This document shows, piece after piece, positions 12,416-62,030 of a stretch of DNA of 64,000 nt. Source of the stretch: Aphrocallistes beatrix (taxonomy: Eukaryota; Porifera; Hexactinellida; Sceptrulophora; Aphrocallistidae); assembly GCA_963281255.1 (NCBI GenBank), contig OY725490.1:3906001-3970000 (forward strand). Reading direction: 5' to 3'. Position numbers and translations under genes: made by a program. The first letter of the stretch is position 1. Each line of letters begins with the position of its first letter. Under the pieces are notes generated by a model that had not been told where the DNA came from, did no database searches, and worked only from the letters and a program-made list of their open reading frames with translations.

Positions 12416-13480
12416 CATAGCCTACTGTATATAAGGCCTCACAGTAACTTGCGGATTTAGGACTAGGGATGCGGTAGAAGATGGTTGAAATAATACGTGG
12501 GCTGCCTTAAATCATTAACAAAGCACAATAGAGCTTAGGAATGTATTACCAACAAATATAAATATGGTGTTAAAGTACTCATATCCGTTGTTGAAATTTC
12601 GATTAGCCACCATATAGTTGCGCAATAGGTTATATTTGTGACAAATTTAGTGATTTTTAGAGGTCATTTAAGGGAACTTCTAATTGTTTTTCTTGTAATT
12701 TTTTTCGCATAGAACCGAGATGTGAATGGGTTAATACGAAATATTTGGAATTTTTTCATGGAATGTTGGTATGCAAACGTGTTTTGGTCGGTTGGGGTCA
12801 TATCTTGAAAACCGCAAGTGCTAGACATTCAAATATAAGTCCATTTGACAGCAAATAGACTACTTCCTATTAAGCGATAATATAATTTCGACGTCTAAAT
12901 TCAATAGTTTACGAGATATTCGACAAATCACCAAATGTGACCAATATGATAAATTGTCTAATAACTCGTAAACCATTGAATTTAGACAAATAAATTATAC
13001 TATCACTTAATAGGAAATAGTCTATTTGCTATCAAATGGACTTGCATTTGAATATCTAGCTCTTGCAGTTTTCAAGATATGACCACAACTGACCAAAACA
13101 CGTTTCCATAGCAACACTGGAATGTAGCAACATTCCATGAACAAATTCTAAATCTTTCGTATCAACCCATTCACATCTCAGTTCGATGCGAAAAAAATTA
13201 TAATAAATACACATAGAAGTGCCCTTAAACAACCACTGAAAATCACAAAATTTTTCACAAATATAACCTATTGCGGAACCATATGGTGACTAATCTAAAT
13301 TTCAACAACGGATATGAGTACTTTAATACCATATTTATATATGCTGGTAATAAATTCCTAAGCTATATTGTACTTTGTTAATGATTTAAGGCAGCCCAAG
13401 TATTATTTCAACCATCTTCTACCGCATCCCTAGTCCTAAATCCGCAAGTTACTGTGAGGCCTTATACGCAGTAGGCTATG
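12416..13480. mobile_element. P-superfamily foldback element (FB1)
   Basis: Starts CATAGCCTACTGTATATAAG and ends with its inverse. Flanked by 7-bp duplications GCTGTGG (12409-12415, 13481-13487). The two halves are nearly complete reverse complements (about 520 bp each), so the whole element is one long palindrome without a gene. The CATA start, the ATAAGG word near the tip and the 7-bp duplication match the P superfamily. Assignment is inferred from ends and duplication and from the THAP-carrying relatives at 22831 and 47004. Confidence 0.75.
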
Positions 13481-13618
13481 GCTGTGGTTAATAACTAACC
13501 TATAGTCATATCCAAATTCAAGGAATTAAAATTATCTTTCAAAATGTATTGGTGATTACTTAAATTTTCTCAAAATCACTGGATTTGGCTAAAAAGAAAT
13601 CCCAGAGAAACCCCAGAG

Positions 13619-13945
13619 CAGCGTTTCTCACCAGGGGCCCGTGGCCCCCAGGAGGGCCACGAGCAGAGGCCTTCACCGGGGGGCTATGTTTAAGTATTGA
13701 CTCAAACATACTGTCCAATTGAAATTAACTATTTATTCTTGCATACTGTTTGCAGTTAGCAATTCTTTGACTTAGATTTTGTTTGGCTTTGAGTTTTTTG
13801 CTTACCAGTCTCGCGAGGTGAATAAAATAATAGAACGTAAATACGTTAAAACGAAATCTACGTTTTTTTATTGAAGGGCAGGGGGCCACGGGTACTGAGG
13901 GTCTCGGTAGGGGGGTCACGGACTATGAAAGGTTGAGAACCACTG
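13619..13945. mobile_element. hAT miniature element
   Basis: Ends CAGCGTTTCTCA and TTGAGAACCACTG (the common CAGTGGTTCTCAA hAT terminus). Perfect 8-bp duplications CCCCAGAG lie at 13611-13618 and 13946-13953. No gene. Confidence 0.92.
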
Positions 13946-13953
13946 CCCCAGAG

Positions 13954-14456
13954 AGATCCCATTATAAATCTGAACTTGGAAAAGCCTAATTTGCGCGACA
14001 ACTAAATCATCTCCCAATTGCTTGAATTTTTTATGGTGAACATTTGGTGATCAAAGTAAACTAATTGAAGGGTAATCATCTAAAGATTCAAACTTTTTAA
14101 TTTTTTGACACACTCTAAATTGTATATAATTTGGGCTTATTAGCACTGGCGAAGTGCAACGATCGTAACAAATCAGGATCCGCCAGTTTTAAATCAAATT
14201 GCACATAAATTTAGAAGGGAAATGGTTAATTTACTGCTTTATTAATTCCAAAATCCCTTAAAAACTTCCTGTTAGTCTTCGGTTAATTCAACAATTACTG
14301 TAAGTATTCATTTTTAATAGATGATAAAGATATTCCATTACTCAATATTCAGTTTTCCGATAAATTTTTAAGTACACTTTTCAAGTTAGGCGTAGAAATA
14401 GATTTATTCGGGCCATGATACACAGCATTTGCCAAAGTTTCAATCATGAAAGTCTG
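13954..14456. other. No feature recognised
   Basis: AT-rich; no motif, repeat arm or coding remnant identified. Confidence 0.4.
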
Positions 14457-15190: not shown

Positions 15191-15239
15191 AATAGATATT
15201 CTATAAAGGAAAAGAAACTATTCCAATGCGATTGATTAA

Positions 15240-16980: not shown

Positions 16981-17350
16981 CTTGTATGTCTGTCTTACTG
17001 TTAAAATCGATATCATTCGAAAGATTATCAAATTGGTAAAATATTAAATTTTTGTAATGATGGCGTCCTAAAAAGTGATGAGTCATCATTTTTTGATGAT
17101 AGTGAAGCATATTAATATACCATTCTATTAAAATTTGTGCATTCTATAATGGCTGAGTTATCGTCGAAAAACGGAAATTTATCATCATAAAAAGTTGACA
17201 ATGACGTCATAATTCCATGATGAGTCAAAATTTTCGTCTGAGGTCAGAACTTAGTGGAGCCATAGCCAAAGGACTATCACATACCAAAAATATTTCTGTG
17301 CCTGGCAGTTTCTTCAATCAATTCGTTACATATATATATATATATATATA
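16981..17350 (-). mobile_element. Helentron-like element, reverse, 3' end missing
   Basis: Runs from the gtctgtcttactg block through tgatgagtcatcattttttg and gccatagccaaaggact to taacgaattg in reverse, then (TA)n. The GC-rich end is absent where the Tigger miniature at 16978 begins. Confidence 0.75.
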
Positions 17351-22700: not shown

Positions 22701-23140
22701 CTCTGCTATCTTATACAAACTTTCAGTTCAATATTATGTCTGCATCAATCTATTAGTCAATATGATACATATACCTAATGAAGTGATATTTCAATTGTTG
22801 CTTAGTTACCAGACTGTACATTGAATGAGCCATAGCATTCTATACATAAGGCAATGGCAGTCACCAAAAAAAAGGAACAATGGATTGCTTAGTATATTCA
22901 ATCCTAAAATCGCTAAATTCATACTGTTATTATCAACTATATAATTATTGAATATTTTGTGTTCATGGGTTGATTAAATATTCATTTTGAAAACATTATG
23001 TAACCACAATATTTATATTTACTTTGCATACAACACTAGTGTATTACACTTACGTATTGTTTTATTGTGTATCATTTCTATTACTCATTTATAATGCCTC
23101 ATTTGACAACACTAATTGTATTAATTAATATTTGGACGAG

Positions 23141-23295
23141 ATGTCTTGTGTCGCGCCTGGCTTCAAATCAAATTACAGAGGAGTAGAACACTCCATGAAG
23201 TTTTTTAATTTACCAAAAAGATGGTGCTCTTCGTGAAAATGGTATCGAGCCATTCCAAGATCTGTGATGACTACTAAAACAACAAGATTCCAAAG
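23141..23295 (+). pseudogene. THAP-domain exon of a P-type transposase
   Basis: Starts ATG and reads MSCVAPGFKSNYRGVEHSMK then FFNLPK, followed by a region equivalent to GALRE-x-WYRAIPR once a missing base is allowed for. THAP domains read roughly C-x3-G-C near the start, then F-P in the middle, then W and P; here the second Cys is Phe. A single-base deletion just before the Trp codon breaks the frame. The exon ends at a good splice donor (CAAAG|GTGAGT). P transposases place a THAP domain at the N-terminus for sequence-specific binding near the ends. Confidence 0.72.
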
Positions 23296-23509
23296 GTGAG
23301 TGGTTTCTTTAGACTTAAGTAATGTAATTATTCTAGAATCATGCATATACTCAAGTTTGTTAGAAACAATTGACTGAATTTAAAAGATTACGAAAAAGTG
23401 TTTACCTTTCCCCAATTTAGTGAATGCAATCCTCGTTACTCCAAAAACATATGCATAAGAACCTTATTTAATTTGGATAAATTCAATATATTTAAAAGTG
23501 CCCCAAATT

Positions 23510-23760
23510 AACATCGAAAGCCTGCTGGCTATCAGCTTGGAAATGCAAAATATAAATTTGACCCTTAAGGTTTCCCATGAGTCAACTTCTGTCGAATATA
23601 TAGCTTATAACATGGAAAAAACATTGTGAGAACCAAACTGTTGAGTTCTTGAAATTCATCAATGATGTTTGGAAAATGTTCAATGTGAATTGGGTAGAGA
23701 AGAATAGTCATTTAACGACGATGTATCTGCACCCTTAGTAAAAATTTTAAAACTTTATTT
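23510..23760 (+). pseudogene. Further transposase remnant of P copy A
   Basis: Frame fragments include NQTVEFLKFINDVWKMFNVN, close to the TVEFIxxINxLxDxLN segment of P/THAP9-type transposases. The rest is too decayed to follow, and an intron probably lies between the THAP exon and this part. Confidence 0.5.
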
Positions 23761-24139
23761 TGGCTCTTCCCATACTAATCTTATTCATTTGGCATGTGCT
23801 ACTATGGAATTAGAACATTGTATACTTTGAGGCATTTTGCACATGCAGCACGTGACGGTGATACATTCTACCAAAGCTTTTTTCACTGTATTCAACTATT
23901 CATTATCTAATAAAGTTAAGACTTCTATATAGTAATGCACAACCGTAGTATTGAAACATGATAATAGTAAACTAAACTTGGTAAATTCAAGAACTAATTT
24001 AATAATATTATTTGTTTATTTAGTCAACTTCATCATGCTGTAAAGGTCCGTAATGTGTGATTATATCCAATTGGAAGGCCAGAGTGTGTGATTATTCCTT
24101 ATGACTCGTAGAAGTATATTGTTCCCTTGTGACGTCTCA

Positions 24140-24262
24140 GTCAAGTCTATTCTCAAGCTAAGTCAAGTCTGTCTCAAGTTAAGTCAAGTCTGTCTCTCAA
24201 GCTAAGCTAAGTCAAGTATATCTCTCAAGCTAAATCGAGCCTATCTCAAGCTAAATCAAGCC
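24140..24262. repeat. Minisatellite inside P copy A
   Basis: Five to six copies of a 21-23 bp unit, agtcaagtctgtctcaagct. The same unit, inverted and longer, lies in copy B at 47262-47470, so it belongs to the element. Confidence 0.85.
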
Positions 24263-24567
24263 ATAGTCTGCCATCAAGAAGTAGAAGTCCGTCTCATTAG
24301 TACTTCTCGAAATCCAATGTTTATTTTGTATTTATGAGCTTAATATTTATATTATGTCATTTGTTTTCTCCAGAATAAAACTAATTACAAAGATCAAATA
24401 TATCTTGACAATTAATGGTCATATTTCTGAGTGGGGTCACCTAAAATGCTTAATTAATCATATATAACATATAAAGGATTAATGTAAATTTGAATATACT
24501 AAGCAATCCCTGGTCAAAAAAATATAGTGACTGCCATTGCCTTATGTATAGAATGCTATGAATGAGC

Positions 24568-25570: not shown

Positions 25571-26743
25571 ATATGCAAGTCCTGAATTGTTTGTAACACT
25601 AGGAGATGATGCTGTCGTCAATGAAGTGATTGTTGAAGACGAATCAATTTGCAATGAAAATCGAGATGAATTTTTAATTTGGCTTAGATGAATGGAATAA
25701 AGTTTGCCAGATTAAGGACGATTCAGTCATATTTTCAAAAGACTGGACTAACTTATTTAATTCCAAATTAAAAGGAATTGTTATATGCGTACTCAGTTTT
25801 AAATACAAAAGAATAAATAAATTAATAGTAGGAAAAATAATAACTGTTTTTTCAGAGCGAAAACTGAATGTAAATTCAAAAACTGCCTCAAGTATACTTT
25901 CACATTTAAAAAGGATACATTTGAGCTTAAACCTAATAACTATATAGTTGTAGAATATCTAGTTTCTGGTTCCTTATCTGAGGTGCATTCGGATGATAAA
26001 ATTGTTCATTCTCGAAATTTATCAAATACACTTAGGTTAGAAGTTGCAGCACAATTGACAGAAAAATCCATAAGTAAATACTTTTACAATCAATTCGAAT
26101 TAACTAAGAATACTCAATTTGCCCTTAATAGCGGGAATTTTAATAAAATAAAAAGTGCATCTGTTCTTAGAAATGTTAAATTTGATTTGTCTAGCCTACA
26201 AAGATATTCAAATGATAATTGGAGCGATTTGATTAATTTGCAGCAACACTATCAGGAAACTTTAGTTGGTAACCATGTAAGGGGTTAAATCCAGTCTTTG
26301 GGATATAATCCTTTCATTATTCATCTGTACACAGAAGAACAAATAAACATTTTGAAGAGTAAAAAAAAAACAAGTATAATTCTCCATTTAGATGCTACCG
26401 GGTCAATTGTTAGAAAGATTGAACCCTCCAGAAAAAGGTGTTTTACTACGCTCTAACTGTACAACACCCTACTTATACCACTAGCCCAGTCCCCCTAGCT
26501 GAGATGATCAGTTCAGCTCATACTAGTGCTGAAATAAGCTATTTCTTGCATAAATGGTTCCTTGATGCCAAGAAAATTTTATGTGGTAATTTTAATATAG
26601 GACAAATATAAGTATATTTTAGCTGGGCTTTAATTCACAGTACTTGTAATGTTTTTCTCAATTGTAACATAGAAAGCTATCTTGATACTTGTTGGAATTG
26701 CTCAGGTTTAAACTCTTCTGTTAAAGATTTAAAGGTTATTGTC

Positions 26744-26933
26744 ACAAGCGCGCTTCGCGCTTGCTTGCGGTGCGCGGCTGGCGGACACTTTGTATGTGAC
26801 AATGACGTCATAATTCCATGATGAGTCGACATTTTCGTCTGAGCTCAGAACTTACTGGAGCCATAGCCAAAAGACTCCCACATGCCAAAAATCAGCTTTC
26901 TGCGCCTGGCAGTTTCTTCAATCAATTCGTAAC

Positions 26934-26980
<47 letters not shown>

Positions 26981-27009
26981 AATATTAATCGAGTTTTAAT
27001 AGTAAGGAT
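26744..27009 (-). mobile_element. Helentron-like element, reverse, internally deleted
   Basis: Has both ends: the hairpin AAGCGCG-CTT-CGCGCTT (26746-26762) on the left and aatcgagttttaatagtaaggat on the right, with a long (TA)n tract (26937-26979). The central third of the family is missing. It is inserted in the MULE-like gene just upstream of the SAHLMYGIGF segment. Confidence 0.8.
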
Positions 27010-27585
27010 TTATTTTCCGCTCATCTAATGTACGGCATCGGATTTCACATAAATAAGAAATTTAAAATAAAAAAAGATATAAGGAGACTATTTCTACATG
27101 TGATAGGATTTATGGTACGCTGTACTGAATTATCTAAAATAAATAATATATTTAATTCATTATGTCGAGTGTTTATGAGTAAATATTTTGATGAATCAGT
27201 TTTGTCCCATATTGCTAAGTTAGATTCTTACATTAGTGAGGATTCCCAAATTTCACCTGATATTAGTAATGATTTAGAAACTGAGATAACAGATAGCAAA
27301 TCAATAATAGAAAAGGATGTCAAAACTTATAAAGAGAAATCACCATTTGGAAGACATAAAATCGCCAGAATTTGTCAAGATAATATCAAAAATAACCTTT
27401 CCAAAATTGTCGAAAAATTTGATTTTCAAATATTTGTTATCATCCTGATCTCATAGAATATTTATTACCTTTCTATTTGCCAATTTTACCATTATGGAGT
27501 GGAATTATATTAGGCCCCAAAAGTATTTCAGTTGGTAATAATTACTCACATTATAGTAACGTAACAATCGAAAACTGGATGTGTA

Positions 27586-29479
27586 CCGTTTTGCTTCGAA
27601 TAAGCGCCCGGCCGCTTATTTTTTTCATTCGCTATTTTGACCCGGCGCTCTTTTTTTTGAATACTACATTGACTGGCACTTTTATTTTTGCCACAACTGA
27701 GAATGTTAGTTTTATTAATTTCGGATAATGTAATGTTTCAAAAAGCACTTGTATCTACTATGTCACTACTGAGAATACTAGTTAGTAGGTAGGTATATAA
27801 AAAAGGGACAATGTTGTTTCAAGAAGTCACTCAAGCTTCGTCATCCAATACAATCAGCTCATTATCCTCATCTTGTTGAGGATCTATTTCATGTGTATTT
27901 TCAATTGGGTTGTCTGAGCTGCTGCTATCTGTCAGCTCTTTGAGTTTTTGAAAAAGTTCATCACGGGTACTAAATAGTACTTCATCTTTCCGAGTGACTT
28001 TTATCATCTCATTTTCAGAATTGTCAATATTGTTCGTAATCACACAAGTTTTGAATGACTTAATAATGACATCAGAGGATACTGGTTCCCAAGCTTGTTT
28101 CACCCATGTGGCCACTAAAACTTTAGAGGGAGCTTTTACGTTGCCACCACGTGTGTACCTTTTTCAGTACCTCGCATCCACTCTTCATACAATTCGCGAT
28201 ATCTATCTTTAAATGGTTTGTTCCAAGATACATCAGGCGCTTGTATCAGACTAGTGCAGCCCCCGGGGATAACTGCCATGTCAGTGTTCAGTCGTAATGC
28301 CAGCTGTTTAGTACTGTCCTGGATACGACACTTATTGCTGTCCCACACAATTAATCTTCGACCAAAGGCTAATTCTCCCCATGTGGTTCGTAACCATTCG
28401 TGAATTAATTTTTCATTCATCCAACCATTTTCGCTCATCACACATATAACTCCTTCTATCGCTTCTAGATCATGAACACGGCGCTTACCCTTGAACACAA
28501 TAAATGGTGGTAATTTAATACCATTTGCTTTAGCAGCGAGACATACAGTAATGCGACATTTATCGTGGCCAGTAGTCTTGATGGGGATGGATTTATGTCC
28601 CACAATGGGCCACGAAGTCCACAGTAGTATTGGCTGGCATTTCTAACCAGACGGGAGTCTCATCCATGGTGCCGATATGCGAGAGCTCCTAACGTTGTTG
28701 CAGGATGAGCGAACGCACAAAGAGAATGAAAATTGTCAACCTAGTGATAACTGTATCAGGAATTGCTTGTCCAACTGTGGTGCAACGTCTGAGAGTGATT
28801 TTGTTTCGAAAAAAAAAATTCGTAACCACCCGCAACTCGCAACGAAGGTGTCTTCTTCGCCACCGTAGAGTTCGAGAGCCTTTGTCTGCACCATCTTACG
28901 AGTTACTCTCAGCCTCTGACTTCTCATATAATATATCCACCCATATAGTTCTTCCTCTATTGTCTCTAACAAGGGTGGCCGACCACCACCATCCAGCTTA
29001 CGGCGCTTTAAGTTGCTAATATCATAGGCACCTCTCAACTTGTCCTGGTCTTTGCACCATTCCCGGATACGTTTAGCGTCGACACCATATTTACGAGCTG
29101 TTTCCTCTTTACTATTGCCAAGTTTGACAAAATCTACAGCCTCCAACTTGAATTCAACAGTGTAGCTATGAAGTTTTCGTTTTGTTCGCTTCTCTGCCAT
29201 CATCTAAGCCTACTATATGTTCTCTAATATGACAAATAGGAAAAAAACCATGCATAATTACCTAGTTCAAAATCAAACAAAGTTAAAATAAAAATGTAGG
29301 TCACGCATACCAATGATACCATAGTACGTAGTATGCGATATTGGTTACAACAGCTTAGATTGTGATTTAAAGGATGAAATTATTATTATACATTTATGGT
29401 TTGATATGATGTTCAGAGAACTAAATGCCCCGGCATCCGACGCTTATTCGAGCCCCGGCGCTTATTCAGGGAAATACGG
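27586..29479 (-). mobile_element. Complete pogo-family transposon
   Basis: 1894 bp, inverted ends CCGTTTTGCTTCGAATAAGC and the imperfect inverse of cttattcagggaaatacgg, with a second inverted AATAAGCG word inside. TA flanks at 27584-27585 and 29480-29481. Removing it with one TA rejoins the host MULE-like frame exactly (...ENWMC-ILKLDILK...). Confidence 0.88.
27831..29203 (-). pseudogene. pogo/jerky-type DDE transposase, one or two frameshifts
   Basis: Starts MMAEKRTKRKLHSYTVEFKL. An N-terminal helix-turn-helix (VDFVKLGNSKEETARKYGVD, RIREWCK) is followed by a CENP-B-type domain with a Lys/Arg linker. After a frame change near 28740 comes the catalytic domain: first Asp in GTMDETPVW (about 28660), a second frame change near 28600, second Asp in IVWDSNKCRI (about 28330), third Asp in LIQAPDVSWNKPFK (about 28240). 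The acidic C-terminal tail after 28115 (SSSSDNPIE...QQDEDNELIVLDDEA) resembles pogo/POGK tails. All catalytic acids are retained. It is one of the youngest-looking coding copies in the window. Confidence 0.9.
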
Positions 29480-30328: not shown

Positions 30329-31796
30329 CATAGCCTACTGTATTTAAGGCCTCACAGTAACTTGCGGATTTGGGACTAGGGATGCGGAGGAAGACCGTTG
30401 AACTAATACATGAACTGCCTTAAATCATTTACAAAGCACAATAGAGCTTAGGAATGTATCATCAGCATATATAAATATGGTGTCAAAGTACCCATATCCG
30501 TTGTTTAAAATTTGATTAGTCACCATATGGTTGTGCAATAGGTTATATTTGTGAAAAAATTGGTGATCTTCAGAGGCCGTTTTAAGTGTTTTTATTGTAA
30601 AATTTTTCGCATAGAACTGAGATGTGAATGGGTTAATACGAAAAATTTGGAATTTTTTCATGGAATGTTGGTACATTCCAGTGTTGCTATGGAAACGTCT
30701 TTTGGTCAGTTGGCGTTATATCTTGAAAACTGCAATAGCTACACATTCAAATGTAATTCCATTTGATAGCGAATATACTACTTCCTATTAAGTGATAATA
30801 TAATTTCGACCTCTAAATTCAATAGTTTATGAGATATTCGACAATGTACCATATTGGTCACATTTGATAATTTGTCAAATATCTCATAAACTTTTGAATT
30901 TAGAGGTCGAAATTATATTATCACTTAATAGGAAGTAGTATACAGTCGAACCTGCTATAACGGCCACTCTATATAACGATCACCTGTCTATAGCGGTCAC
31001 CAATGAACAGTCCCGTCCGAAATTCCATAATATTGAACCTGTGTATAGCGGTCACCTGCTCAACGCGGCCAGCGGCCACCCGTTTGTAGTCCCTTACTGA
31101 CCCAAAAACTGTGTATAACGGCCATTACCTGTCTATAACGACCACCACTGTCTATAACGGCCATCACCCTTTTCATCTTTTTATGTTTATTAGTGAACCT
31201 GTTATGAACGATAAACAAGTTTCATGTAATTACTTCAAGTAATGGATTTCTAAAACTTGTATTTATTGCACTACGTTGGTACCTTTTGGGAATTAAGACA
31301 ATCACCTGTATATAACGGTCACCTGTGTATAACTGCCAATTTTGTCCAGTCCCTTGGGTGGCCGTTATACACAGGTTCCACTGTATTCGCTATCAAATGG
31401 AATTACATTTGAATGTGTAGCGTTTTCAAGATATAACGCCAACTGACCAAAACACGTTTCCATAGCAACACTGGAATGTACCAACATCCCATGAAAAAAT
31501 TCTATGCGAAAAATTTTACAATAAAAACACTTTGGTGTCCGTAAACGGCCTCTGAAAATCACCAAATTTGTCACAAATATAACCTATTGCGCAACCATAT
31601 GGTGACTAATCAAATTTTAAACAACGGATATGGGTACTTTGACACCATATTTATATATGCTGATAATACATTCCTAAGCTCTATTGTGCTTTGTTAATGA
31701 TTTAAGGCAGCTCATGTATTAGTTCAACGGTCTTCCTCTGCATCCCTAGTCCCAAATCCGCAAGTTACTGTGAGGCCTTATATACAGTAGGCTATG
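30329..31796. mobile_element. P-superfamily foldback element (FB2)
   Basis: Same ends as FB1 (CATAGCCTACTGTATTTAAG). 7-bp duplications CATATAT at 30322-30328 and 31797-31803. The long arms are inverted copies of each other; the centre is split by a Tigger-type miniature element. No gene. Confidence 0.8.
30943..31383. mobile_element. Tigger-type miniature element inside FB2
   Basis: 441 bp, ends CAGTCGAACCTGCTATAACG and inverse (cgttatacacaggttccactg), TA on both sides. Many internal TATAACGGCCA/C words. A reversed relative lies at 51346-51767. Confidence 0.88.
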
Positions 31797-34695: not shown

Positions 34696-35033
34696 GAAGC
34701 ACACTAAAAATAATATGAGAACCATAGCCTACTATACATAAGGCCTCACAGTAACTTGAGGAATTTGGACCAGGGATGCGGGGAAAGTCCGAACCATCAA
34801 ATTGAATAATACCCTTCCCAATGGTTTAAAATACTAATAGTAGATTTAATAACGAATTCTAACCTTTTTAATGAATATTTCCTTATTATTACACTTCATT
34901 TTAATTATTAATAAATGTTTACAATTTCATTTTAATTAAAATAACCCATAAGTGTTAAAATAATATGTGTAATAAGTAACAAAATTCTTTTTTGTATATC
35001 TGTTTTCAATTTTCTTCTTTTAATTTGCCTACC

Positions 35034-35070
35034 CATAGCGTTCTATATACTAAGGTAGTGGCAGTCACTT
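35034..35070 (+). mobile_element. P-type terminus of the copy A/B subfamily
   Basis: catagcgttctatatactaaggtagtggcagtcac differs only slightly from the ends at 22831 and 49222. The element body does not follow. Confidence 0.6.
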
Positions 35071-35157
35071 CGGTGGCGGGAACTCCGATTAATCGGGACA
35101 AGATTCGGGCCCGATGTGTCCCAATTAGGCGGAGTCGACTATATACAGTACAATTAG

Positions 35158-35215
35158 ATAAATGGCCAGGTAGTGGGTGTCCAGACACCCAGAACACCTC
35201 AATGGCGCGGCCCTG
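35158..35215. repeat. hAT-type end fragment
   Basis: ggtgtccagacaccc palindrome with ggcgcggccctg on the right. The same words recur at 63605-63652. Confidence 0.4.
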
Positions 35216-35360
35216 CTATTTTTTGTAACCTAATGGAATATAAAATATCCAAACAATATTCTTCATGAGTCATGAAAATTATATCCAAGGAATTTCTTCG
35301 GTATAAATGCATTTGTATCAATACGGCAAAGACGCAGGCGCAAAAATAGTTGCATCACTC

Positions 35361-35490
35361 AGGGTTGGGGTCAATTACAATTATAATTGTGTAATTGGTA
35401 TTTAATTACAATTACACTGTAATTGAAAATTTTACTTGCCTTGAAATTGATTCGTAATTGTAATTGAACAAATGTAATTGACCCCAACCG
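35361..35490. repeat. Miniature repeat with ggggtcaattac inverted ends
   Basis: gttggggtcaattacaatt at left, aatgtaattgaccccaac at right, interior of alternating caattac/gtaattg words. Target duplication unclear. Confidence 0.65.
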
Positions 35491-35904
35491 ACGCACTCTA
35501 TTGTTATCTGACTTTTGAAATTATTAACCATTTAATTCAATTTTGTTGATATTATTACTTGTTGACCTCTTTTCTAGAAACAGACCCTTGGAACATCATT
35601 GGTGATGTCTGTTTAGAGCTATCAAATCTCATATTTTGAAATATTGAAACGGACGTATTCATATTTTACTATTCACACCATGTGTGTACAGAGCGAGCGA
35701 GTAGGAGAAAGAAAGAAAGCAGAAAAATATTGTGAAGACCTTTTTTATTGCCATTTTAACCTTTCTATTATGTAATATGATACATGTTGTTCTTAGTCAT
35801 TCATTAAATATGTTCAAAATAAAATATTAACTCTTATTAGAGTAGGGAATAATGGAAAACAGACTATGGCGAAGTTATTTAATGACCTAATTGGTTAATA
35901 TACA

Positions 35905-40436: not shown

Positions 40437-40583
40437 ATTTGAAATTGCAATTTTATGATGAAATCTGAATAGTTAATTTATTGAAACACGCAAGAAATCT
40501 ATAAATGCGACTTAATATTGTCATTTATATTTCTTACAGTTAATAATATCACTTCTACAAGTATTATTACTATTATGTTATTA

Positions 40584-41342
40584 TAGGGTGGCTTGTAAGT
40601 TCTGTCCCAAGCTTTATTAGGTATAAAATTTCTTAAACTCAAACAATCTTAGTTATTATGGTATTTAGATATTCTAATTCGAATATTTTCAATGATTTTA
40701 AAAGATTTTTCGGTTCTATGACTTAGAAATAGGTGTTTTGAGAAAAAAAAATGTGTCCTGGCACGCAGCGAAAATCGTGAATCAGGGCCCACTGCTTTTC
40801 AAGTATCTTCCCAGAGTCTTCAAATCCTAGGAAAAATTAGCCCACACATTTTCCTCGAACACTATAAATTTGTAGAAATATAGAATGTTTAGATCAGTAT
40901 ATATTGAGAACCTTTTGGATCAGATTTTTTGGTGATGTGAGCGAGCCATTTTGGGTGATTTTGTAAAATGTACCTAATTTGAAGTCGTGAAATAATAACT
41001 TTATCTCGTTTCTGATATTTTATGAATGCAATAGATTTGTGGAATATTTCAATGGTGAATGAAAGGTATCTGGTGCTAAATCGTCATGGAACATCGATTT
41101 TCGAGACATTTTTTACAGAAGCAGTGGCCTGGATTCTCGATTTTCGCTGTGTGCCAGGACACATTTTTTTTCTCAAAACTCACCATACAAAACACATTTC
41201 TAAGTCATAGAATCGAAATATCTTTTAAAATCATTGAGGATATTCGAATTACAATCTCTAAGGACCATAATAACTAAGATTGTTTGAGATTAAGAAATTT
41301 TATACCTAATAAAGCTTGGGACAGAACTTACAAGCCACCCTG
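40584..41342. mobile_element. M1-family miniature element inside the hAT
   Basis: Ends (t)agggtggcttgtaagttctgtccc and inverse (gggacagaacttacaagccaccctg), TA flanked. Inverted halves with the same interior blocks as 3293-5287, here uninterrupted. Confidence 0.85.
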
Positions 41343-41775
41343 TATGTTATTACAGTAAGGTTGTGGTTTGTATACTAATATATGTTTTCATTATTTCAGA
41401 AATTGAAATCATTACAATTGATTTAGAGGGATTCTTAATTATAGAAGTGCAGTTATCAATTGTTATTTGTGAATTGGCAATAGTGCAAATTGTCAACAGA
41501 CAATAAACTTTGATCAATTTAATTCAACACTGGATTTCTACATGCATTAGGAGAATTTAATTTAAAGTTGTAAATGCAATTTGCCGCCCGGGGCGGGCCG
41601 CTCCCCCCGCCCCTCCCACGGTACGCCACTGCTTCTTTCTATTTATGAAACATGGTCATACTGGTATCCGAATCCAAGTACATTAGTATTTATGCGCCCG
41701 AAGCTAGATACTTTATATCGTATGATGTCAGGTGCAAATTAACACATTTCCTATTTTCAGATTTTAGAATCAGAG

Positions 41776-42474
41776 CATCGTCTTAAAGTATTCAATATCT
41801 TAAACTTGTTTTCCAAGCAAACCGTTTCTAGTACAACATGTTTACAAGAGTTTATTCAATCCTTCTCTTCAATAGAAAGTACAGATTGTAACATTGAAGT
41901 TGATTTAGATCCATTATTGAGTACAATATCAGACCTCTCTACCATTGAGTATGACATCCAGGTACTTCAGTCCTTAGCATCTATTGCTGGCTATTCAATA
42001 CCTACATCGTTACTTCAAATGTTCTCAGCTTTGTCTTATACAAGTATGTCGGGATATATTAACTCTCGAAAAAGATCTCTTATTGATGATATGTCTCTGG
42101 CTCAATTCAAACTATTAGACCTCTCTGATCATGGATCTATAAAATATCCATCTGAGATGGTACTATAATGTATCGTAATTGTCTGGAAGATTTTCGTTAA
42201 CATTGAAAATGATGATGAACTCTTGATGCAATTAATTGAAAGACTATCCAGGAAAATTCTTATTGAATTATCAATACATTATATAATGGCTAGTGAACAT
42301 TGTGATTTGTGGAATAAAGCCTGTTGTTCTTGTGCTGCAAGTGGCACTTACATCCTTCAGAAACTTATATTCGTAGCTGTTAACTGTTTTTTAGCAAACA
42401 AGATTAAAAATTATAATTCACTTGTAGTTGCCAAGGGTGTGGAGAAGCGGAAACTCAAAAAATTTAACAAATAG
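41776..42474 (+). pseudogene. Unassigned coding remnant next to the P-type end
   Basis: An open frame of about 130 codons runs from a possible splice acceptor (ttttcag|attttag at 41760) with HRLKVFNILNLFSKQ, then LDPLLSTISDLSTIEYD and SRKRSLIDDM. After one stop at 42166 the same frame continues to 42474 with IVWKIFVNIENDDELLMQLI, HCDLWNKACCSC, FVAVNCFLANKIKNYNSLV and a basic tail (KRKLKKFNK). It sits 200 bp inside the P-type end at 42880. Basic tails and paired Cys in this position would suit a P transposase C-terminus, but I do not recognise specific motifs, so this is inference. Confidence 0.4.
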
Positions 42475-42930
42475 TATTACCGCAATGATCCTTTCTTTGT
42501 CTTACATGTGTATAGTATTTTTTTTGTTTTATTTTCTTTAGATTAGAAGTAGAGCATATATTCTATCTGGAGAGGGAGGATTATCCAGTGGATTATATAG
42601 TAAACAAGTGTACATTATATCATTTTGTATTTGACTAGTGTTAGTATTGTATGATTACATGTACTGTACTTCTTGTGTAGAAATATATTATTAATAATTA
42701 AAATGAAGCGTAATAATAAGTAAATATTCATTTAAAAGGGTTATAATACGTTATTACATCTACTGTTAGTATTTTAAACCTTTGGGTAGGGTATTATTCA
42801 ATTTGATGGTTCGGACTTTCTCCTCATCCCTGGTCCAAATTCCTCAAGTTACTGTGCGGCCTTATGTATAGTATGCTATGGCTTAGCTTATTAACTTACA
42901 AAATTGATTCAAATTGTGTATCCTTACTAA

Positions 42931-43425: not shown

Positions 43426-43971
43426 TCCTTACTATTAAAACTCGATTATTGTGTATGTATATATATATATATCTGTAACGAATTGATTGAAGAAACTGCC
43501 GGTCATAGAAAGCTGATTTTTGGCATGTGGGAGTATTTTGGCTATGGCTCCAGTAAGTTCTGAGCTCAGAGCAAAATGTCCACTCATCATGGAATTATGA
43601 CGTCATTGTCACATTTTTAAAAGTTAAGCAACACAGTTATTCGGGCATAACTCAGCCATTATAGGAGATAGAAGGCTGACATTTTAATAGAATCTGTATA
43701 CTAACATGTCTCACATATGATGCGACTATCATCAAAAAATGATGACTCATCACTTTGTTATGACGTCATCATTACTCATTAAAATTTTTAAATTGACAAA
43801 TTTGGTGATTTTTCGAGTGATATCGATTAGCACAGTAGAACAGACATATTTAGAGATGTTATCTCCCTTATAGTTAACCAATGTGACTCCAGGCGACCGA
43901 AGGGAGCCTCCGGCGGATACGAAGTGTCCGCCAGCCGCGCAGCGCAAGCAAGCGCGAAGCGCGCTTGTAAC
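43426..43971 (+). mobile_element. Helentron-like (HINE-type) non-autonomous element, full-length
   Basis: Reference copy, about 545 bp. The 5' end TCCTTACTATTAAAACTCGA is followed by (TA)n, non-coding blocks including palindromic TGATGACTCATCA, then a GC-rich 3' region with cggcggacac...gtgtccgccagcc and the hairpin AAGCGCG-AAG-CGCGCTT (43950-43966), ending GTAAC. There are no inverted termini and no target duplication. A TCCTTACTA start and a hairpin just before the 3' end are the pattern of Helitron/Helentron derivatives. It carries no Rep/helicase. Assignment is inferred from architecture. Confidence 0.7.
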
Positions 43972-44813
43972 TATAAAAATCAACATAGAATAATGAACTG
44001 TGACTAATGCATGTGAAAAGTAGTGTTAAAGTTAAGAGGTGCAATTACTACATCAAGATAATTTCTTCAAACTTACGCTTTTTAATACCTTTCGAACTTA
44101 CCAAAGAATTATAATTCTTAACTTTATTGGCAAGTAAACAATTAGTACAAGTATATATGAGTCCTAAGAATAGTCCAATTATGGACACTACAGCATATGC
44201 AGCTATATTTCCAGATTACATGATCGTTGGCATCCTCTAAGAATCCCATTGTGAGTTGGACTAGAAGTTTTCTAGAAGCTCCTTGGCAGGAAATGCCAAC
44301 AAATTATTGTTATTTTTAATAGCAAAAAAGATCTCAAAAAAATAACGATGGAATTGATAATAATCTCAGAGGGATATTTAAGAGAGCCGCGATCAGTTAA
44401 CCGTAAAACTTGAACTGAGGGTGTCAAATTTCATCAAAATGAAATTATTTATCAAAGGCTAGAAGATGGAGACAAACATGACATGGTTGCAAGTGGGATT
44501 CTTTTAGGTACTGATGAACTGAATAACCTGCAATAAATGATAATGACAGAAGTATTTGTGAATCGCATTCAATAAATGACAGATCATCAATTTCATCAAA
44601 AAATGGCTCTAAAATGAATTATGATCACCACTGGTAGCACAGGGAAAAGAAAATGATTCAACAAAAGTTTGAATAGATTGTGCTCCAGTCCTCTTGTTGA
44701 CCAGAAACTATTTTCAAAATGTTAGAAAGCTTGAAGCGACGTTCAGTTTCAAGTATTTGCAGATAAGAGTGTTAATTAGAATCAGACATCATTCGATAGA
44801 AACCAAAGTGATG
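43972..44813. other. No feature recognised
   Basis: AT-rich; no ORF with a motif, no paired ends. Confidence 0.4.
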
Positions 44814-44821
44814 ATCTAATG

Positions 44822-47003: not shown

Positions 47004-47261
47004 CATAGCATTCTATATAGGCAATGGCACTCACCCAAAAATTAGTACCATGGATTGGTTAAATACTTCAAAACCAATAATTTTGATATTGTAGATATTT
47101 CAATTTTCCATCAATTTAGGCATTCACCCACCTTGACAAACGAACTAATATATCAGAACAATTGAAATGAGATATATTATTTGGTTTTTAATGCACATAA
47201 TCGAATTATTTAATACTTAATACATACAAAATATCAAAAGAATAGTTAATTACAATATTGA

Positions 47262-47470
47262 GACTTGAGGGACAGACTTGACATAGCTTGAGAGATAGAC
47301 TTGACTTAGCTTGAGAGAGACTTGACTTAGCTTGAGGGACAGACTTGACTTAGCTTGAGAGACAGACTTGAATTAGCTTGAGGGACAGACTTGACTTAGC
47401 TTGAGGGACAGACTTGAGTTAGCTTGAGAAACAGACTTGACTTAGCTTGAGGGACAGATTTGACTTGACT
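47262..47470. repeat. Minisatellite inside P copy B
   Basis: About nine copies of a 21-23 bp unit gagacagacttgacttagct; inverse of the unit in copy A. Confidence 0.9.
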
Positions 47471-47785
47471 TGAGACCGGAGACTTGAGGCATCATAAGGG
47501 AACAATCACACCCCGGCCTTTCAATAGGATATAGTCACACAATCCGGACTTCTACAGTCTGTGAAGTCGACTAAATAAACAAAGAATATTTTAAATTAGT
47601 TCTTGAATTTAGCCAGTTTACTATTCTCTAGTTTCAATACTAGTGCATTATATATAGGTCTTAACTTTATTAGAAGTGTACAATGTTCTAGTTCCATAGT
47701 AGCACATGCCAAATGAATAATATTAGTACGGGAAGAGCCAGAATAAATCTTTTAATTTCTGCTGAGGGTGTAGATATATCGTCGT

Positions 47786-48288
47786 CATAGGCGTAACTCC
47801 ATGGGTGGCAGGCAGGGTTGCCGTGGGAATGGGAATCCCCATACCCATGGGATGGGAATGATTTTTCCCCCGTGGGGATCCCCACATATTCCTATGGGGA
47901 TTCCAACAGGGTCCTATGGGGAGTCCCACAGAGTCCTATAGGAATCCTCATGGGGATTCCCACAGGGTCCTATGGGGATTCCTACAGCGTTCCTATAGGG
48001 ATCCATGGGGATTCTCATAGGGTCCTATTGGAATCCTCATGGGGATTCCCACAAGATTCCCATAGAATTCCTGTGGGAATCCCCACGGGGATTCCCACAG
48101 GAATTCTATGGGAATGGGATGGGAATTGAAATTTAATTCTCACGGCAACCCTGGTGGCAGGGGTAGCGTGCCACCCAGACCTAAATGTTATGTTGACTTG
48201 GGGTGGCATGCCACATTAGTTTGATATATGTTTACAAATCTCGCCACCCCAGCTAACCGTGAAAAAAAACAAAATAGTTACGCCTATG
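47786..48288. mobile_element. hAT miniature element inside P copy B
   Basis: Ends CATAGGCGTAACTCCATG and tagttacgcctatg. Perfect 8-bp duplications ATCGTCGT (47778-47785, 48289-48296). It is itself interrupted. Confidence 0.92.
47813..48153. mobile_element. hAT miniature element inside the previous one
   Basis: Ends CAGGGTTGCCGTG and CACGGCAACCCTG. Perfect 8-bp duplications GTGGCAGG (47805-47812, 48154-48161). The interior is a degenerate array of gggattccc / ccctatgggg palindromic words, open in several frames on both strands only because of its repeat structure. Confidence 0.93.
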
Positions 48289-48451
48289 ATCGTCGTTAAA
48301 TGACTATTCTTCCCTACCCAATTCACATTGAACATTTTCTAAACACCATTTACAAATTTCAAGAACTCAACAGTTTAGTTCTGGTCTACACAGTTCTTAT
48401 CCATGATATAAGCTAACAGTCCGGCTGAAGTTGACTAATGAAAATCTTAAG

Positions 48452-48522
48452 GGCCCAAATTACATTTCACCTTTCCAACCTGACAACCGGCAGGCTTGTC
48501 AGGTTAGAAAGGCGAAGTGAAA
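48452..48522. repeat. Short hairpin in P copy B
   Basis: attacatttcacctttccaa pairs with its near-complement at the other side of a small loop. Absent from the matching place in copy A (about 23500), so it was gained or lost after the copies separated. Confidence 0.7.
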
Positions 48523-48760
48523 TGTCCCGATGTTAATTTGGAGCACGTTTAGATAAATTGCACTTATCCGAATTAAAAAAAAGGTACTTATGCCCACGTT
48601 TTTGTACAAGTAGTAACGAGGATTGTATTTACTAAATTTGGGGAAGGCAACACTTTTTCTTAGTCTTTTAAATTCAGTCAATTGTTTCTACCCAACTTGA
48701 GTGTGTACATATATGCATGATTCTAGAATAATTAACTACATTACTTAAGAAATCACTCAC

Positions 48761-48911
48761 CCAGGATTTTGTTGATCTGGTAGTATTCACACGTCTTGGA
48801 ATGGCTCAATACCATTTTCACGAAGAGCACCATCTTTGGGAAATTGAAAAACTTCATGAAGTGTTCCACTCCTCTGTAATTGGAAGTCGAGTCAGGCGCG
48901 AGACAAGAAAT
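48761..48911 (-). pseudogene. THAP-domain exon of P copy B
   Basis: Aligned with copy A it reads ISCLAPDSTSNYRGVEHFMK then FFNFPK. The start Met is Ile (ATG to ATT) and the CPGC-type second Cys is absent. It has the same one-base deletion before the Trp codon as copy A, and a further TGA two codons after the Trp. The donor (CTGG|GTGAGT) is retained. Non-functional. Confidence 0.72.
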
Positions 48912-49222
48912 CTCGTCCAAATAATGATTTATGCAATTAGTGTTGTCAAGTGAGGTATTATAAATGAGTAATAGAAATAATATGCAGCAAAACAATACAT
49001 TATTGTAATACACTAGTGTTGTATGTGAAGTAAATATAAATATTGTGGTTACATAATATTTTCAAAATGAATATTTAAGCTAACATGAACTCACAATATG
49101 AGATAATTATATAGTTGATAATAACAGTTATTTAAATAGCGGTTTTAGGATTGAAGTATTTAACCAATCCATGGTACCAATTTTTGGGTCAGTGCCATTG
49201 CCTTAGTATATAGAATGCTATG

Positions 49223-52128: not shown

Positions 52129-53444
52129 CTTAGGTCATTTCAAAAGTACTGATCACCCCCCGCCAATTTGATATTAAGCAACGACTGATGTGTTATTTAA
52201 TCACATATACTCGAAATAGTCTCCCTTGACACGAATACACTCCTTTAGACGGTCTACCCAGCAGCGAAATGTCTTTTTATACTCCGTCTGTGGGATCGAT
52301 TTCAGGTACTTATGAACGGCGAATCCGATCTCCATTCGACTAGTGAACTTCTTATCAGAGAGATGACTTTTCAGCTTTGAAAACAACCAGAAGTCACAAG
52401 GACTTAGGTCAGGGGAATAGGGAGGGTGATTCAGTGTTTTCATCCTTATATCCTTGATGTATCCGGTGACTTGTTTAGTTTTATGGCTACTGGCATTATC
52501 ATGTAGAAGTTTTATTCCACGAGGACCAGTTCTCCGCCGACGCTCTGTGTAGTGTTTACTAACATCTGCGAGCACATTAGTGCAATAAAAGTCTCCAGTA
52601 ACATTCTGGCCCTTCGGAACGCAAACTTGAGCAACTGGGCCGTAGACGTCAAATGCAATTGCGTACATTACCTTCTTGGCACGGAAATCTGGACGCGGTC
52701 TTTTAGGTCGGGGTTCGCCCGGATGCAGCCAACACTTAGATTTTTCCTTGGATTTTGGTTGTGAATATTAAATCTACGTTTAATCTATGGTTACTATCTC
52801 ATAGAGTCGCCTTGCATCAAATCTTTCGTAATCTAGAAGATTTTCGCAACATTCTAGCCTCTGTTTCATCCGGGCCTCTGACAGCAAATCCGGCACCCAC
52901 CGAGCGCAAACCTTCCTTACTCCGAGATCTTCCTTCAGAATGCGGTAAATACTTCCCGTTAAGATATCCTTATACTAAGAAATCTCTTCAATAGAGCAGC
53001 AAGGGTCATTTCGAAGAAATTCACCAACCAACTCAATTGAGGGTTCACCGGTTGCAGATTTAGGCATACCAGTCCGAGGCTCATCTTCAATGCTGTCTCT
53101 TCACTCTCGAAATAGTCGAGCCCATCTTCTAACCGTGGAATAAGCAAGTGCTTGATCTCCACAAACTTCCACGAGATCATTGTGGATGTTCCTAATTGGA
53201 ATCTTTTAGTAGTGAACGAAACTTGATATACGCCTTTTGCTCTTGCTCAATAATTGACGATTTTGAAGCCAAAACTGACAAGATTGAAATGATGATTATA
53301 AGAAAAATACTTGTGCTATCTCAAAAATTCTTTTAGATATTAGGAGAGAATGGGTAATGCTATCTGGATTATATTAATTGGTACATTCGATATACACTAG
53401 CTGTCAAAAATCAATAGTGATCAGTACTTTTGAAATGACCTAAG
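52129..53444 (-). mobile_element. Full-length mariner transposon
   Basis: 1316 bp, inverted ends CTTAGGTCATTTCAAAAGTA...CTGATCAC, TA flanks at 52127-52128 and 53445-53446. Length and TTAGGTC-type ends are those of mariner. Confidence 0.93.
52201..53260 (-). pseudogene. Mariner (DD34D) transposase with stops and frameshifts
   Basis: The C-terminal half is open for 155 residues: AIAFDVYGPVAQVCVPKG, LLHDNASSHKTKQV (second Asp), HPPYSPDLSPCDFWLFSKLK (third Asp; DD34D spacing) and a normal end (VKGDYFEYM). Upstream the frame carries EIVTID followed by three in-frame stops, exactly where the TIDETWI motif with the first Asp lies; the Asp codon itself is intact. Farther upstream, GDQALAYSTVRRWARLF is the second helix-turn-helix of mariner N-termini, and frame changes separate it from a first HTH near 53200. 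Inactive. Confidence 0.9.
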
Positions 53445-53824: not shown

Positions 53825-55066
53825 TCAAGATTTCTTGTGTTTTTCATATATTGTCATAGCAGATTGAAATAGACTAGAATAATCGAGGGAAGGTTTTAAT
53901 TCGCAATTGTGAGGACATAACAGATCTGGAGTACAAAGACCTTTGCTGCTTGAAAAGTGTGTCCGTAATTTAGAGTCTAATTTTTGTGTCAAGGCGAAAT
54001 TTGGAGTGAATCCAGTTTTAAAAGATTCTTTCTCAATTTCTAAATTAACATTATCTTCTATAAAAGAACCAATTTCCAAAGATGTCAAGTTAGAAATAAA
54101 AGCATTAACATTTGTTTTCAGATCTTTTAATTCAATCAATTGTTTGATATAAAAATTAAAGAAATTACTTTCAACTAATGAATAGCTCAAAGCTATATCA
54201 AAAATTGGAAAATGAGCAAATCCTTTTGCTGAATAATTTTTATTAAAAACATTAGTCTTAATGGATTTTACAGCAAAACTCTTTGCAAATTGAAATGCAT
54301 CAACATCGTCATCAAGAACAATTGTGGTATCCATGTCACTCAGAGAATCATAGATTTCACTTTTTTCTTTTTGTCTAAGATTCTGCAGAATTGAAGTGTC
54401 GTTAAAATTTAGAGATTGAGAAGATTGTTTCTTAATGGCTCTGACCTGTGATTTATTTATAATTACTTTCGACATTTCTTGAGAATTCTTTTTCTTTTTT
54501 GATACCGTTTCGCAGTGCTTCGAATGCTTTCTTTTGGAAACATGATGTAAAGCAACACTAGGAATAGTTAGATCAATGTTTAAATTAGTTGTATTTTCAC
54601 TATCGTTCTCAAAATGTGCTTCAATTTTGTTTTTCAAAGTATCTTTCTGAATATTTTTAGATGAGATATTTTCCTTCTCAAAATCTTCATTTTCATTGTC
54701 AATTTTTTTACAATTCTCACTATATAAAGACTTCCTTTTGGAAAACCCTACGTGTGAGCCACTAATGTTGGAATCGATTCGATGCTTATTGGATTTTCTA
54801 ATTGTTTGCTTTGATGGAGATGCGGTCAAAGTCTCGGGTTTAATTTTATAACTTTTACCTTTTGAACTGTTGGTTCCAGAAGTCTTTTTAGCTTGAACAG
54901 GACTTAGTTTAGAAATACTAAAAATTTCTTTGGTAGATTCATTTTTAATTCGATATTTCTTATTAGCTCGTGATTTCTTGTCCTTCTCATGCTTGTGTTT
55001 CCGAGAATCATTTTTTTTAAGAGGATCAGCAGAGATAGCTAGTAGAGATGAAAGTATGTTAATCAA
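53825..55066 (-). CDS. Uncharacterised Lys/Ser/Asn-rich protein, probably a 3' terminal exon
   Basis: Longest intact frame in the window (413 codons if the first Met is used) and the only one not resembling a transposase. I do not recognise it. The N-terminal 230 residues are hydrophilic and basic with KKKK, KHKHEKDKKSR and KRKHSK runs, so it is likely disordered and nuclear. The C-terminal 150 residues are more ordered: a short acidic SDMDTTIVLDDDVDAFQFAK segment, aromatic-rich SLVESNFFNFYIKQLIELKD, then a tail with two Cys (CTPDLLCPHNC) and a short basic end (YEKHKKS). A T-rich tract ending ...CTCTACTAG (acceptor at 55039-55040) precedes the frame, so translation may enter from an upstream exon, not at Met 1; that exon was not found. 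There is a downstream AATAAA. A host gene is the simplest reading. Confidence 0.6.
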   Translation of the reverse strand: MINILSSLLAISADPLKKNDSRKHKHEKDKKSRANKKYRIKNESTKEIFSISKLSPVQAKKTSGTNSSKGKSYKIKPETLTASPSKQTIRKSNKHRIDSNISGSHVGFSKRKSLYSENCKKIDNENEDFEKENISSKNIQKDTLKNKIEAHFENDSENTTNLNIDLTIPSVALHHVSKRKHSKHCETVSKKKKNSQEMSKVIINKSQVRAIKKQSSQSLNFNDTSILQNLRQKEKSEIYDSLSDMDTTIVLDDDVDAFQFAKSFAVKSIKTNVFNKNYSAKGFAHFPIFDIALSYSLVESNFFNFYIKQLIELKDLKTNVNAFISNLTSLEIGSFIEDNVNLEIEKESFKTGFTPNFALTQKLDSKLRTHFSSSKGLCTPDLLCPHNCELKPSLDYSSLFQSAMTIYEKHKKS

Positions 55067-60460: not shown

Positions 60461-60479
60461 ACGCTGTATTAAAATTTTG

Positions 60480-60642
60480 ATGTTGCCATTAGTCCGAATT
60501 TTATGAACTATTATTAGTTCGAATGAATTTTCAATGTACTTTAATTATTTGGAATTGATTTTTAATGTACTGTCATTAGTTCGAATGAATTTTCAATGTA
60601 CTGTCATTGTTTCGAATGTTTTTCAGTGTACTGTCTTTGTGT
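60480..60642. repeat. About 30-bp tandem repeat
   Basis: Five imperfect units of tgtactgtcattagttcgaa followed by tgaattttcaa. Confidence 0.8.
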
Positions 60643-60911
60643 GACATTTTGGAAGAGATATTCATAAGAACTGTGGGAAAGGATGCATTTTCTTCAGAGA
60701 ATCGTATAAAATTGAGGGTGATTAGGGCATTTATGAACGAAGGGGGTGATTGAGTGGAGAGATGTTTATAAGAACTGAGGGAAAATCAGCATTTTCGGCT
60801 GAGAAGATTAAAAATTATAGAATGAAATCTTTCGACAAAAGTATTGGATAATATTTATATCTCAAAAGTACGTTGTTAACTTCGGTGCTAACAACAAATA
60901 ATACGTAGATC

Positions 60912-62030
60912 CATAGCCTACTCTAATAATGCCTCACAGTAGACTGAAAATTATGGACTAGGGATGAAGTAGTAGCCGAATGGATTAATACACGATTAGC
61001 CAAAAATCGTTAACCAAGCGGAATAGGCATTAAGAATGTATTACCAGCATATATAAACATGGTATCAAAGTACATATATCCATTGGAATCAAAGTACATA
61101 TATCCGTTGGAATCAAAGTACATGTATCCGTTGGAAAATTCGATTAGTCATCATATCATTGCACAACAGGTCATTCTAAGGACAATTTTATCGATTTTCT
61201 AAGCTGTTTTAACCCTATTTCTAAATGGTATTAAGATGTGATTTTTGTGTAGAACCAAGATTAGCACGAGTTGATTTGAAAAATTTAGATTTTTCCAATG
61301 GAATGTAGTTACATTCCTATGTTGCTATGGTAAAGCATTTTGATCAGTTTGAGCCATACCCTTCAAACTGTAAGAACTAGATCTTCAAATTTGATCGTGT
61401 TTGATAGGCAATGGGCTACTTCCTATTAGGTGATAATACAACTTTAGGTGATAATACAACTTCTAAATTCAAAGTTATGGGTTGATTTTAAGAATGCGAC
61501 CAAAACACTAAATTTTCGCATAACTCTACTATAGTCTGTGAATTTAGAAGTTTAAATTGTATTATTACCTAATAGGAAGTAGCCAATTGCCTATCAAATA
61601 CGATCAAATTTGAAGACCTAGTTCTTACAGTTTGCAGGGTATGGCTCAAACTGATCAAAATGCTTTACCATAGCAACGTAGGAAAGTAACAACATTCCAT
61701 TGAAAAAATCTAAATTTTTCAAATCAACTCGTGCTAATCTTGGTTCTACACAAAAATCACACCTTAATACCATTTAGAAATAGGGTTAAAACAGCTTAGA
61801 AAATCGATAAAATTGTCCTTAGAATGACCTGTTGCGCAATGATATGATAACTAATAGAATTTTTTCCCACGGATATATGTACTTTGATACCATGTTTATA
61901 TATGCTGGTAATACATTCTTAATGCCTATCCTACATGGTTAACGATTTTAGGATAATCGTGTATTAGTCCATTCGGATATTACCGCATCTTTGGTTATTT
62001 TACTGTGAGGCATTATTAGAGTAGGCTATG
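60912..62030. mobile_element. P-superfamily foldback element (FB5)
   Basis: Ends CATAGCCTACTCTAATAATG and inverse. Perfect 7-bp duplications GTAGATC (60905-60911, 62031-62037). Whole-length palindrome of about 550-bp arms, related to FB1 but diverged. A 29-bp unit (ccgttggaatcaaagtacat) is tandemly repeated at 61061-61140 in the left arm only. Confidence 0.82.

Follow-up and report, generated by a model that had tools for sequence, protein, structure and literature searches.

A 64,000-nucleotide stretch of the genome of the hexactinellid sponge Aphrocallistes beatrix (assembly GCA_963281255.1, contig OY725490.1, positions 3,906,001 to 3,970,000; hereafter the window) contains five elements that begin CATAG and end CTATG. 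These are almost certainly non-autonomous cut-and-paste transposons of the P superfamily that are moved in trans by the transposases of longer relatives with a 7-bp stagger. They belong to a large and diverse P-superfamily population having, in another animal, a 7-bp footprint like that of the Drosophila transposon Galileo, and are not a new kind of element. The evidence consists of common ends, exact 7-bp duplications, empty sites that contain the 7-mer only once and the presence of a P transposase within such elements.

The boundaries and flanking 7-mers assigned to the five elements in an earlier note, made from the sequence alone, proved exact to the base (Table 1): each element begins CATAGC, ends GCTATG and lies between perfectly matching 7-mers. 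When the 22 CATAGC and 24 GCTATG words of the window were paired at spacings of 50–12,000 bp, only five pairings had a flanking repeat of 6–9 bp. These were the same five elements, and the repeat was 7 bp in every case. One of the 7-mers (CATATAT, at the element beginning at 30329) sits in an AT repeat. Two of the elements (those at 22831 and 47004) lie in opposite orientations, with 80% identity across 945 bp, and had been described as carrying THAP-domain exons. THAP remnants are indeed present, at 23138–23260 in the first (48.8% identity over 41 residues to the transposase of a relative) and at 48914–48834 in the second (48.1% over 27 residues), and both elements also retain pieces of later transposase regions (23338–23735 in the first), but many stops break the transposase frames of both elements and no usable exon is left.

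Genome-wide searches covered the 100.5-Mb assembly of 28 contigs that holds the window. Forty stretches (loci L013–L052) were drawn from among the first 100 places listed for the pattern CATAGCNTNCTNTNC and from matches to PF21787, the profile of the P RNase H domain. Ends were paired where CATAG was present at both and at least 13 of the 16 end bases matched, which gave 67 pairings in the window plus the 40 loci. By eye, 33 were judged to join both ends of a single element of the CATAGC/CATAGAC groups and were retained (six in the window and 27 in the fetched loci), a non-random sample mostly from contigs C1–C3. The 34 discarded pairings included two elements with CATAGGCGT ends and 8-bp duplications, which were treated as a separate family, one pairing in a TATATA run (L047 1055–1644) and one within a larger palindrome having inverted flanks (L014 4377–5062); the others joined ends from separate elements or involved unrelated CATAG words. 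No pair was accepted in 13 of the 40 loci (L015, L017, L019, L025, L027, L028, L029, L030, L046, L048, L049, L050 and L052). An exact 7-bp duplication flanked 27 of the 33 copies, the five window elements included, so the preference for 7 bp that the earlier note had expected of copies elsewhere was borne out. Two further copies matched at six of seven positions (L020, L040) and one at five of seven (L016 2370–6150), and none of the 33 had an exact duplication of 6 bp or 8 bp.

For each of the 27 exact copies, the two flanks were joined around a single 7-mer and compared with the window and the fetched DNA. Junction-spanning matches were obtained for eight of the joined flanks, and of the five inspected, four (L032, L038, L039, L041) were paralogous empty sites in which the identical 7-mer occurs once. 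The L032 element bears a transposase; it lies in a repeat, and the L024 and L023 copies of that repeat have the 7-mer once and show 97.2% identity across the junction. The window element at 47004–49222 is inserted in a dispersed repeat, other copies of which are uninterrupted at that point; these copies (one at 35986–36290 of the window) pass through the site with a single 7-mer that differs by two bases. As paralogous empty sites have one copy of the 7-mer, they show directly that insertion duplicates seven bases. Alignment of the 27 sites on the duplication, with the end groups pooled, gave a 13-bp palindromic target that extends past the 7-mer and has T/A at −6, mostly A at −5, G/A at −3 and mostly T at −1, mirrored on the other side. 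In the symmetrised counts (54 sites) there were 27 G at −3, 39 A at −5 and 37 T at −6. The information summed over distances 1–7 was 2.55 bits at the duplication centre, and none of 92 other centres tried within these flanks exceeded 0.92 bits.

The pattern CATAGCMTWCTNTA matched the genome 2,896 times versus 6 for a reversed control, equivalent to about 1,450 elements if all ends are paired, and CATAGCNTNCTNTNC matched 504 times versus 29 for its reversed control. The window holds 12 CATAGCMTWCTNTA matches versus 1.8 expected from the genome average. Hence the high density noted in the window is real, but members of the family occur throughout the genome and are not confined there. The RNase H profile PF21787 was found at 131 or more places (E up to 0.001, the count being a lower bound) and PF21788, the profile of the GTP-binding insertion, gave 17 matches. 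Neither profile was found in 14 control genomes, a comparison of little weight since those named among them are prokaryotes.

P transposase was found inside five loci having CATAG-type ends and 7-bp duplications (L013, L014, L026, L031 and L032), with terminal inverted repeats (TIRs) of 28–216 bp and the THAP domain PF05485 above cut-off in all five. The relatives thus encode THAP plus a P-type RNase H, the combination that the earlier note proposed to look for, and one of them, L032, has the GTP-binding insertion (26.9 bits versus a cut-off of 24.8). The THAP part of L014 is on a separate frame, and an intron is possible there. The L032 protein aligned with the Drosophila P transposase 6P5A (E 2e-6), which placed D425, D507 and E753 opposite D230, D303 and E531; the three L032 residues are invariant in L031. 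L032 D750 lies opposite D528, which we take to be a further active-site residue. In Drosophila P transposase D230, D303 and E531 form the catalytic triad (PMC8230255). The L031 and L032 transposases are 27% identical, and therefore diversity within this one genome is deep. The Drosophila P end CATGATGAAATAACATAAGG (PMC9682801) and CATAGCCTACTATACATAAGG have ACATAAGG in common, offset by one base. Of random ends, 0.18% had an eight-base run in common at an offset of no more than two bases; this comparison was picked after looking.

Table 1. Elements of the window and transposase-bearing relatives in fetched loci (window positions unless a locus is named; dup., duplication; HTH, helix-turn-helix)
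Location	Strand	Feature	Ends	Flanking dup.	Coding content or match
12416–13480	.	Palindromic (foldback-like), whole-length, non-autonomous	CATAGCCTACTGTA	GCTGTGG	
22831–24560	+	Internally decayed P element, CATAGCATTC group	TIR ~71 bp	AATGAGC	
30329–31796	.	Palindromic, same class as 12416, interrupted	Arms ~447 bp	CATATAT	
34723–42880	+	Sixth P element	192-bp TIRs, 92.7% alike	Unmatched (TGAGAAC / GCTTAGC)	
44063–44819	-	Remnant, C-terminal part of a further P transposase	None assigned		tblastn E 6e-37 to L026b
47004–49222	-	Second decayed P element, CATAGCATTC group	TIR 68–72 bp	ATCAGCC	
60912–62030	.	Palindromic, whole-length, non-autonomous	CATAGCCTACTCTAATAATGCC	GTAGATC	
L032 2452–5926		Transposase-bearing relative		AGTATGC	869-aa single frame; PF05485 (THAP), PF21787 (RNase H), PF21788 (GTP-binding)
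L031 3016–6705		Transposase-bearing relative		ATGTACC	858-aa single frame; PF05485 (THAP), PF12017 (HTH), PF21787 (RNase H)
L026		Transposase-bearing relative			616 aa with PF05485 and PF21787; remainder on following frame
L013		Transposase-bearing relative			THAP and RNase H domains split over frames
L014		Transposase-bearing relative			THAP and RNase H domains split over frames

The window elements at 12416, 30329 and 60912 are palindromic, and whole-length palindromes made up eight of the 33 copies. The element at 12416 is self-inverted over its positions 1–1065 with 86.4% identity between the halves and is 83–85% identical to five palindromic copies elsewhere. The halves of the element at 60912 are 81% alike (80.8%), and its better orientation is 87% identical to L018 4163–5228 (1,066 bp, duplication ATTAAAC). 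Element lengths were read by hand for 24 end pairs on contig C1 from 100 listed CATAGCMTWCTNTA places (excluding an outer pair of 5,830 bp); 13 of the 24 were 1,042–1,083 bp, the commonest length class among the matches listed. Among the eight palindromes, five of the 28 possible pairs show higher identity between the two copies than between the arms of each. Thus, L033 and L038 are 97.5% identical versus 94% for their arms, and L018 and the element at 60912 are 87.1% identical versus 86.4% and 80.8% for theirs. For these five pairs, this indicates that the palindromes have spread as units.

Several observations weigh against P-type transposition in trans as the origin of the five elements. 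Flanks were unmatched in three of the 33 copies (L023, L033 and the window element at 34723). The GTP-binding insertion was not reported by Pfam in L031, L026, L013 or L014, and its 17 places in the genome compare with at least 131 for the RNase H domain. A PDB search with L031 by itself returned a THAP chain only, without 6P5A. The position of Drosophila P residue D444, mutation of which abolished both excision and integration (PMC8230255), is occupied by K in L032 and by L in L031, a genuine difference from the fly enzyme. Two of the six end groups lack ACATAAGG and another two share it only in part. In 23 of the 28 palindromic pairs, including all pairs with the element at 12416, the identity between copies does not exceed that within both sets of arms. 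Finally, the palindromic class has the terminal ~55–70 bp in common with the transposase-bearing elements of L026 and L013, and mobilization in trans is therefore what we infer for it.

These points must be set against the alternatives. Another superfamily (Mutator/Foldback-like or a THAP-bearing Kolobok type), with the P transposase present in similar elements by coincidence, seems very improbable. Whole-length palindromes do look like Foldback elements, and a foldback element of root-knot nematodes has been named Mutator/Foldback (PMC3169594), but a P transposase lies between ends of the same type with a 7-bp duplication in five loci and L032 has the P catalytic residues. A Kolobok, hAT or Mutator origin was rejected for the transposase-bearing groups, given the P transposase inside similar ends. 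That the ends and perfect 7-mers arose by chance in AT-rich DNA, as the shortness of CATAG and the AT repeat around CATATAT might suggest, is so improbable as to be negligible in view of the five of five duplications in the window, the 27 of 33 overall, the empty sites and the 2,896 pattern matches versus 6. Chance matches were rejected on the control counts and the empty sites.

The alternative that we consider to have a slightly better than even chance concerns how many enzymes are involved: several P transposase lineages would each serve their own ends, and the palindromic and CATAGCATTC copies would be moved by different enzymes. Distinct end groups (CATAGCATTCTATACATAAGGCAATGG, CATAGCCTACTATACATAAGGCCTCACAGTA, CATAGCCTACTCTAATAATGCC and CATAGACTACTTAATAATACAG) and the low identity of the L031 and L032 proteins favor this, whereas CATAG ends with 7-bp duplications occur in all groups, the target was seen only in pooled sites and cross-mobilization may take place. 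The P-superfamily assignment made in the earlier note is supported by the 7-bp duplications and by the P transposase of the relatives. If the five elements are such transposons, longer relatives with similar ends would encode the THAP/RNase H/GTP-binding transposases that act on them in trans. The transposase would join the two element ends to the target strands with a spacing of seven bases, at a palindrome approximating TARGYTNARCYTA, and host repair would then convert the 7-base stagger to a 7-bp duplication. The elements at 22831 and 47004 are transposase-bearing copies that decayed internally, and the other three represent a class with a single palindrome of ~1.07 kb, apparently two copies of one end, that multiplied as a unit in several cases. 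The order of cleavage and joining, dependence on GTP and the mobilization of these particular copies by transposases of this genome are likewise what we infer.

The earlier note treated the 7-bp duplication as a departure from the P superfamily. It is not one, as Galileo (a P-superfamily transposon of Drosophila with subfamilies Newton and Kepler) is described as making mostly 7-bp duplications (PMC2775673, PMC4168063). The Galileo duplication consensus is GTAGTAC/GTATTAC in an AT-rich 15-bp palindromic target, AANGT...ACNTT (PMC2775673, PMC4168063, PMC3573991 and PMC10990002), and three Galileo copies have an 8-bp duplication (PMC4168063). Its foldback-like copies are almost entirely TIR, the 2-TIR copies being 1.7–2.2 kb, and chimeric copies have non-matching 7-bp flanks (PMC3573991). 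The Galileo transposase is intronless, whereas the P element has introns (PMC10990002). The elements reported here resemble Galileo in the 7-bp duplication, a palindromic target bounded by G...C and single-frame transposases (L031, L032), and the window element at 34723, with its unmatched 7-bp flanks, resembles the chimeric copies. Eight of the 33 copies are whole-length palindromes, reminiscent of the TIR-only Galileo copies, but the transposase-bearing copies here have short TIRs. They differ in the target centre, which is GYTNARC rather than GTANTAC, and in the ~1.07-kb length of the palindromic class compared with the 2-TIR copies. The likeness to Galileo, the nearest of the known relatives in this respect, is one of behavior. 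The 1360 (Hoppel) element makes a 7-bp duplication. It is the third Drosophila member of the P superfamily and has the target motif ANAGT...ACTNT (PMC4168063).

The Drosophila P element makes an 8-bp duplication and has 31-bp TIRs (PMC7776569). The elements share with it the THAP domain, an RNase H domain with equivalents of D230, D303 and E531, the GTP-binding insertion (L032), a palindromic target centred on the duplication and, in the commonest ends, a CAT...ACATAAGG motif. Unlike P, no copy of the 33 has an exact 8-bp duplication, D444 is not conserved and L031 and L032 have single frames rather than introns. The P elements and P-type miniature inverted-repeat transposable elements (MITEs) of Anopheles and the zebrafish Pdre2 are also described as making 8-bp duplications (PMC1562414, PMC7776569), and they are like the elements reported here in being P transposase families with short non-autonomous derivatives. 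Searches of the open-access literature turned up no 7-bp P elements from hosts other than Drosophila and nothing on P elements of lophotrochozoans.

P elements are a main model for cut-and-paste transposition, and their transposase requires GTP (PMC7776569). Many transposase-bearing copies, ~2,900 ends and a clean 7-bp footprint provide natural variants to set beside the solved 8-bp enzyme, and a comparison of the 7-bp variants with that enzyme could help to locate the residues that determine strand-transfer spacing. Judging from the palindromic class, long inverted repeats may be able to spread as units in the genome of an animal, a point relevant to the rearrangements that such elements cause, as Galileo does in Drosophila. 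A tentative extension, which we think rather unlikely as a whole, is that the 7-bp stagger and TARGYTNARCYTA-like target mark an old P-superfamily branch common to Galileo and these elements, far outside flies. Here the branch would have split into several transposase lineages and given rise to ~1.07-kb palindromes that multiply as units, with loss of the D444 contact accompanying the 7-bp spacing.

The window contains other mobile DNA. Its sixth P element retains transposase pieces at 37647–37739 and 41632–42471 (the main part of the latter is 78.7% identical to L026b) and is broken up by further mobile sequences, among them a hAT-type piece, with a match to DUF4371. hAT dimerisation domains (PF05699) are found at 8723–9187 and 37898–38830, the second within the sixth P element. 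A piece of ~440 bp (about 30943–31384) nested inside the element at 30329 has TA borders and inverted ends and is probably a Tc1/mariner-type MITE. Nested in the element at 47004 is a 503-bp element (47786–48288) that starts CATAGGCGT and has its own 8-bp duplication; a second short CATAGGCGT element lies at 8042–8337 of L028, and the duplications of the two are ATCGTCGT and ATCATCAC. The pattern CATAGGCGTMRNNNYT gave 203 matches versus 6 for its control, and the CATAGGCGT elements could be either P-type with an 8-bp duplication or another MITE. L014 has at about 3926–5530 a larger palindrome that encloses a CATAGCACTCTG-ended palindrome and a stretch of N.

Transposase pieces at 1452–2590, 28139–29203 and 52204–52767 matched DDE_1 plus a Tc5-type helix-turn-helix (pogo/Tigger-like) at two of the sites and DDE_3/Transposase_1 (mariner-like) at the third. 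A dispersed repeat at 35986–36343, 43454–43810, 219–493 and 17024–17291 has copies in many of the fetched loci and is itself a target of P-type insertions. An Rfam scan of the window gave no match. The open frames at 25821–27453 and 53828–55066, which had nothing above the Pfam cut-off, are possibly host exons. Outside the window, contig C28 (L053; 18.0 kb) contains an animal-type mitochondrial stretch with the order nad3-cox1-cox2, in which COX1 uses TGA as Trp. The nad3 gene of flies has another location, and the gene order thus makes a drosophilid host improbable. This COX1 also has AGA at positions that we take to be Ser and 36 ATA codons, many at positions that are presumably Ile.

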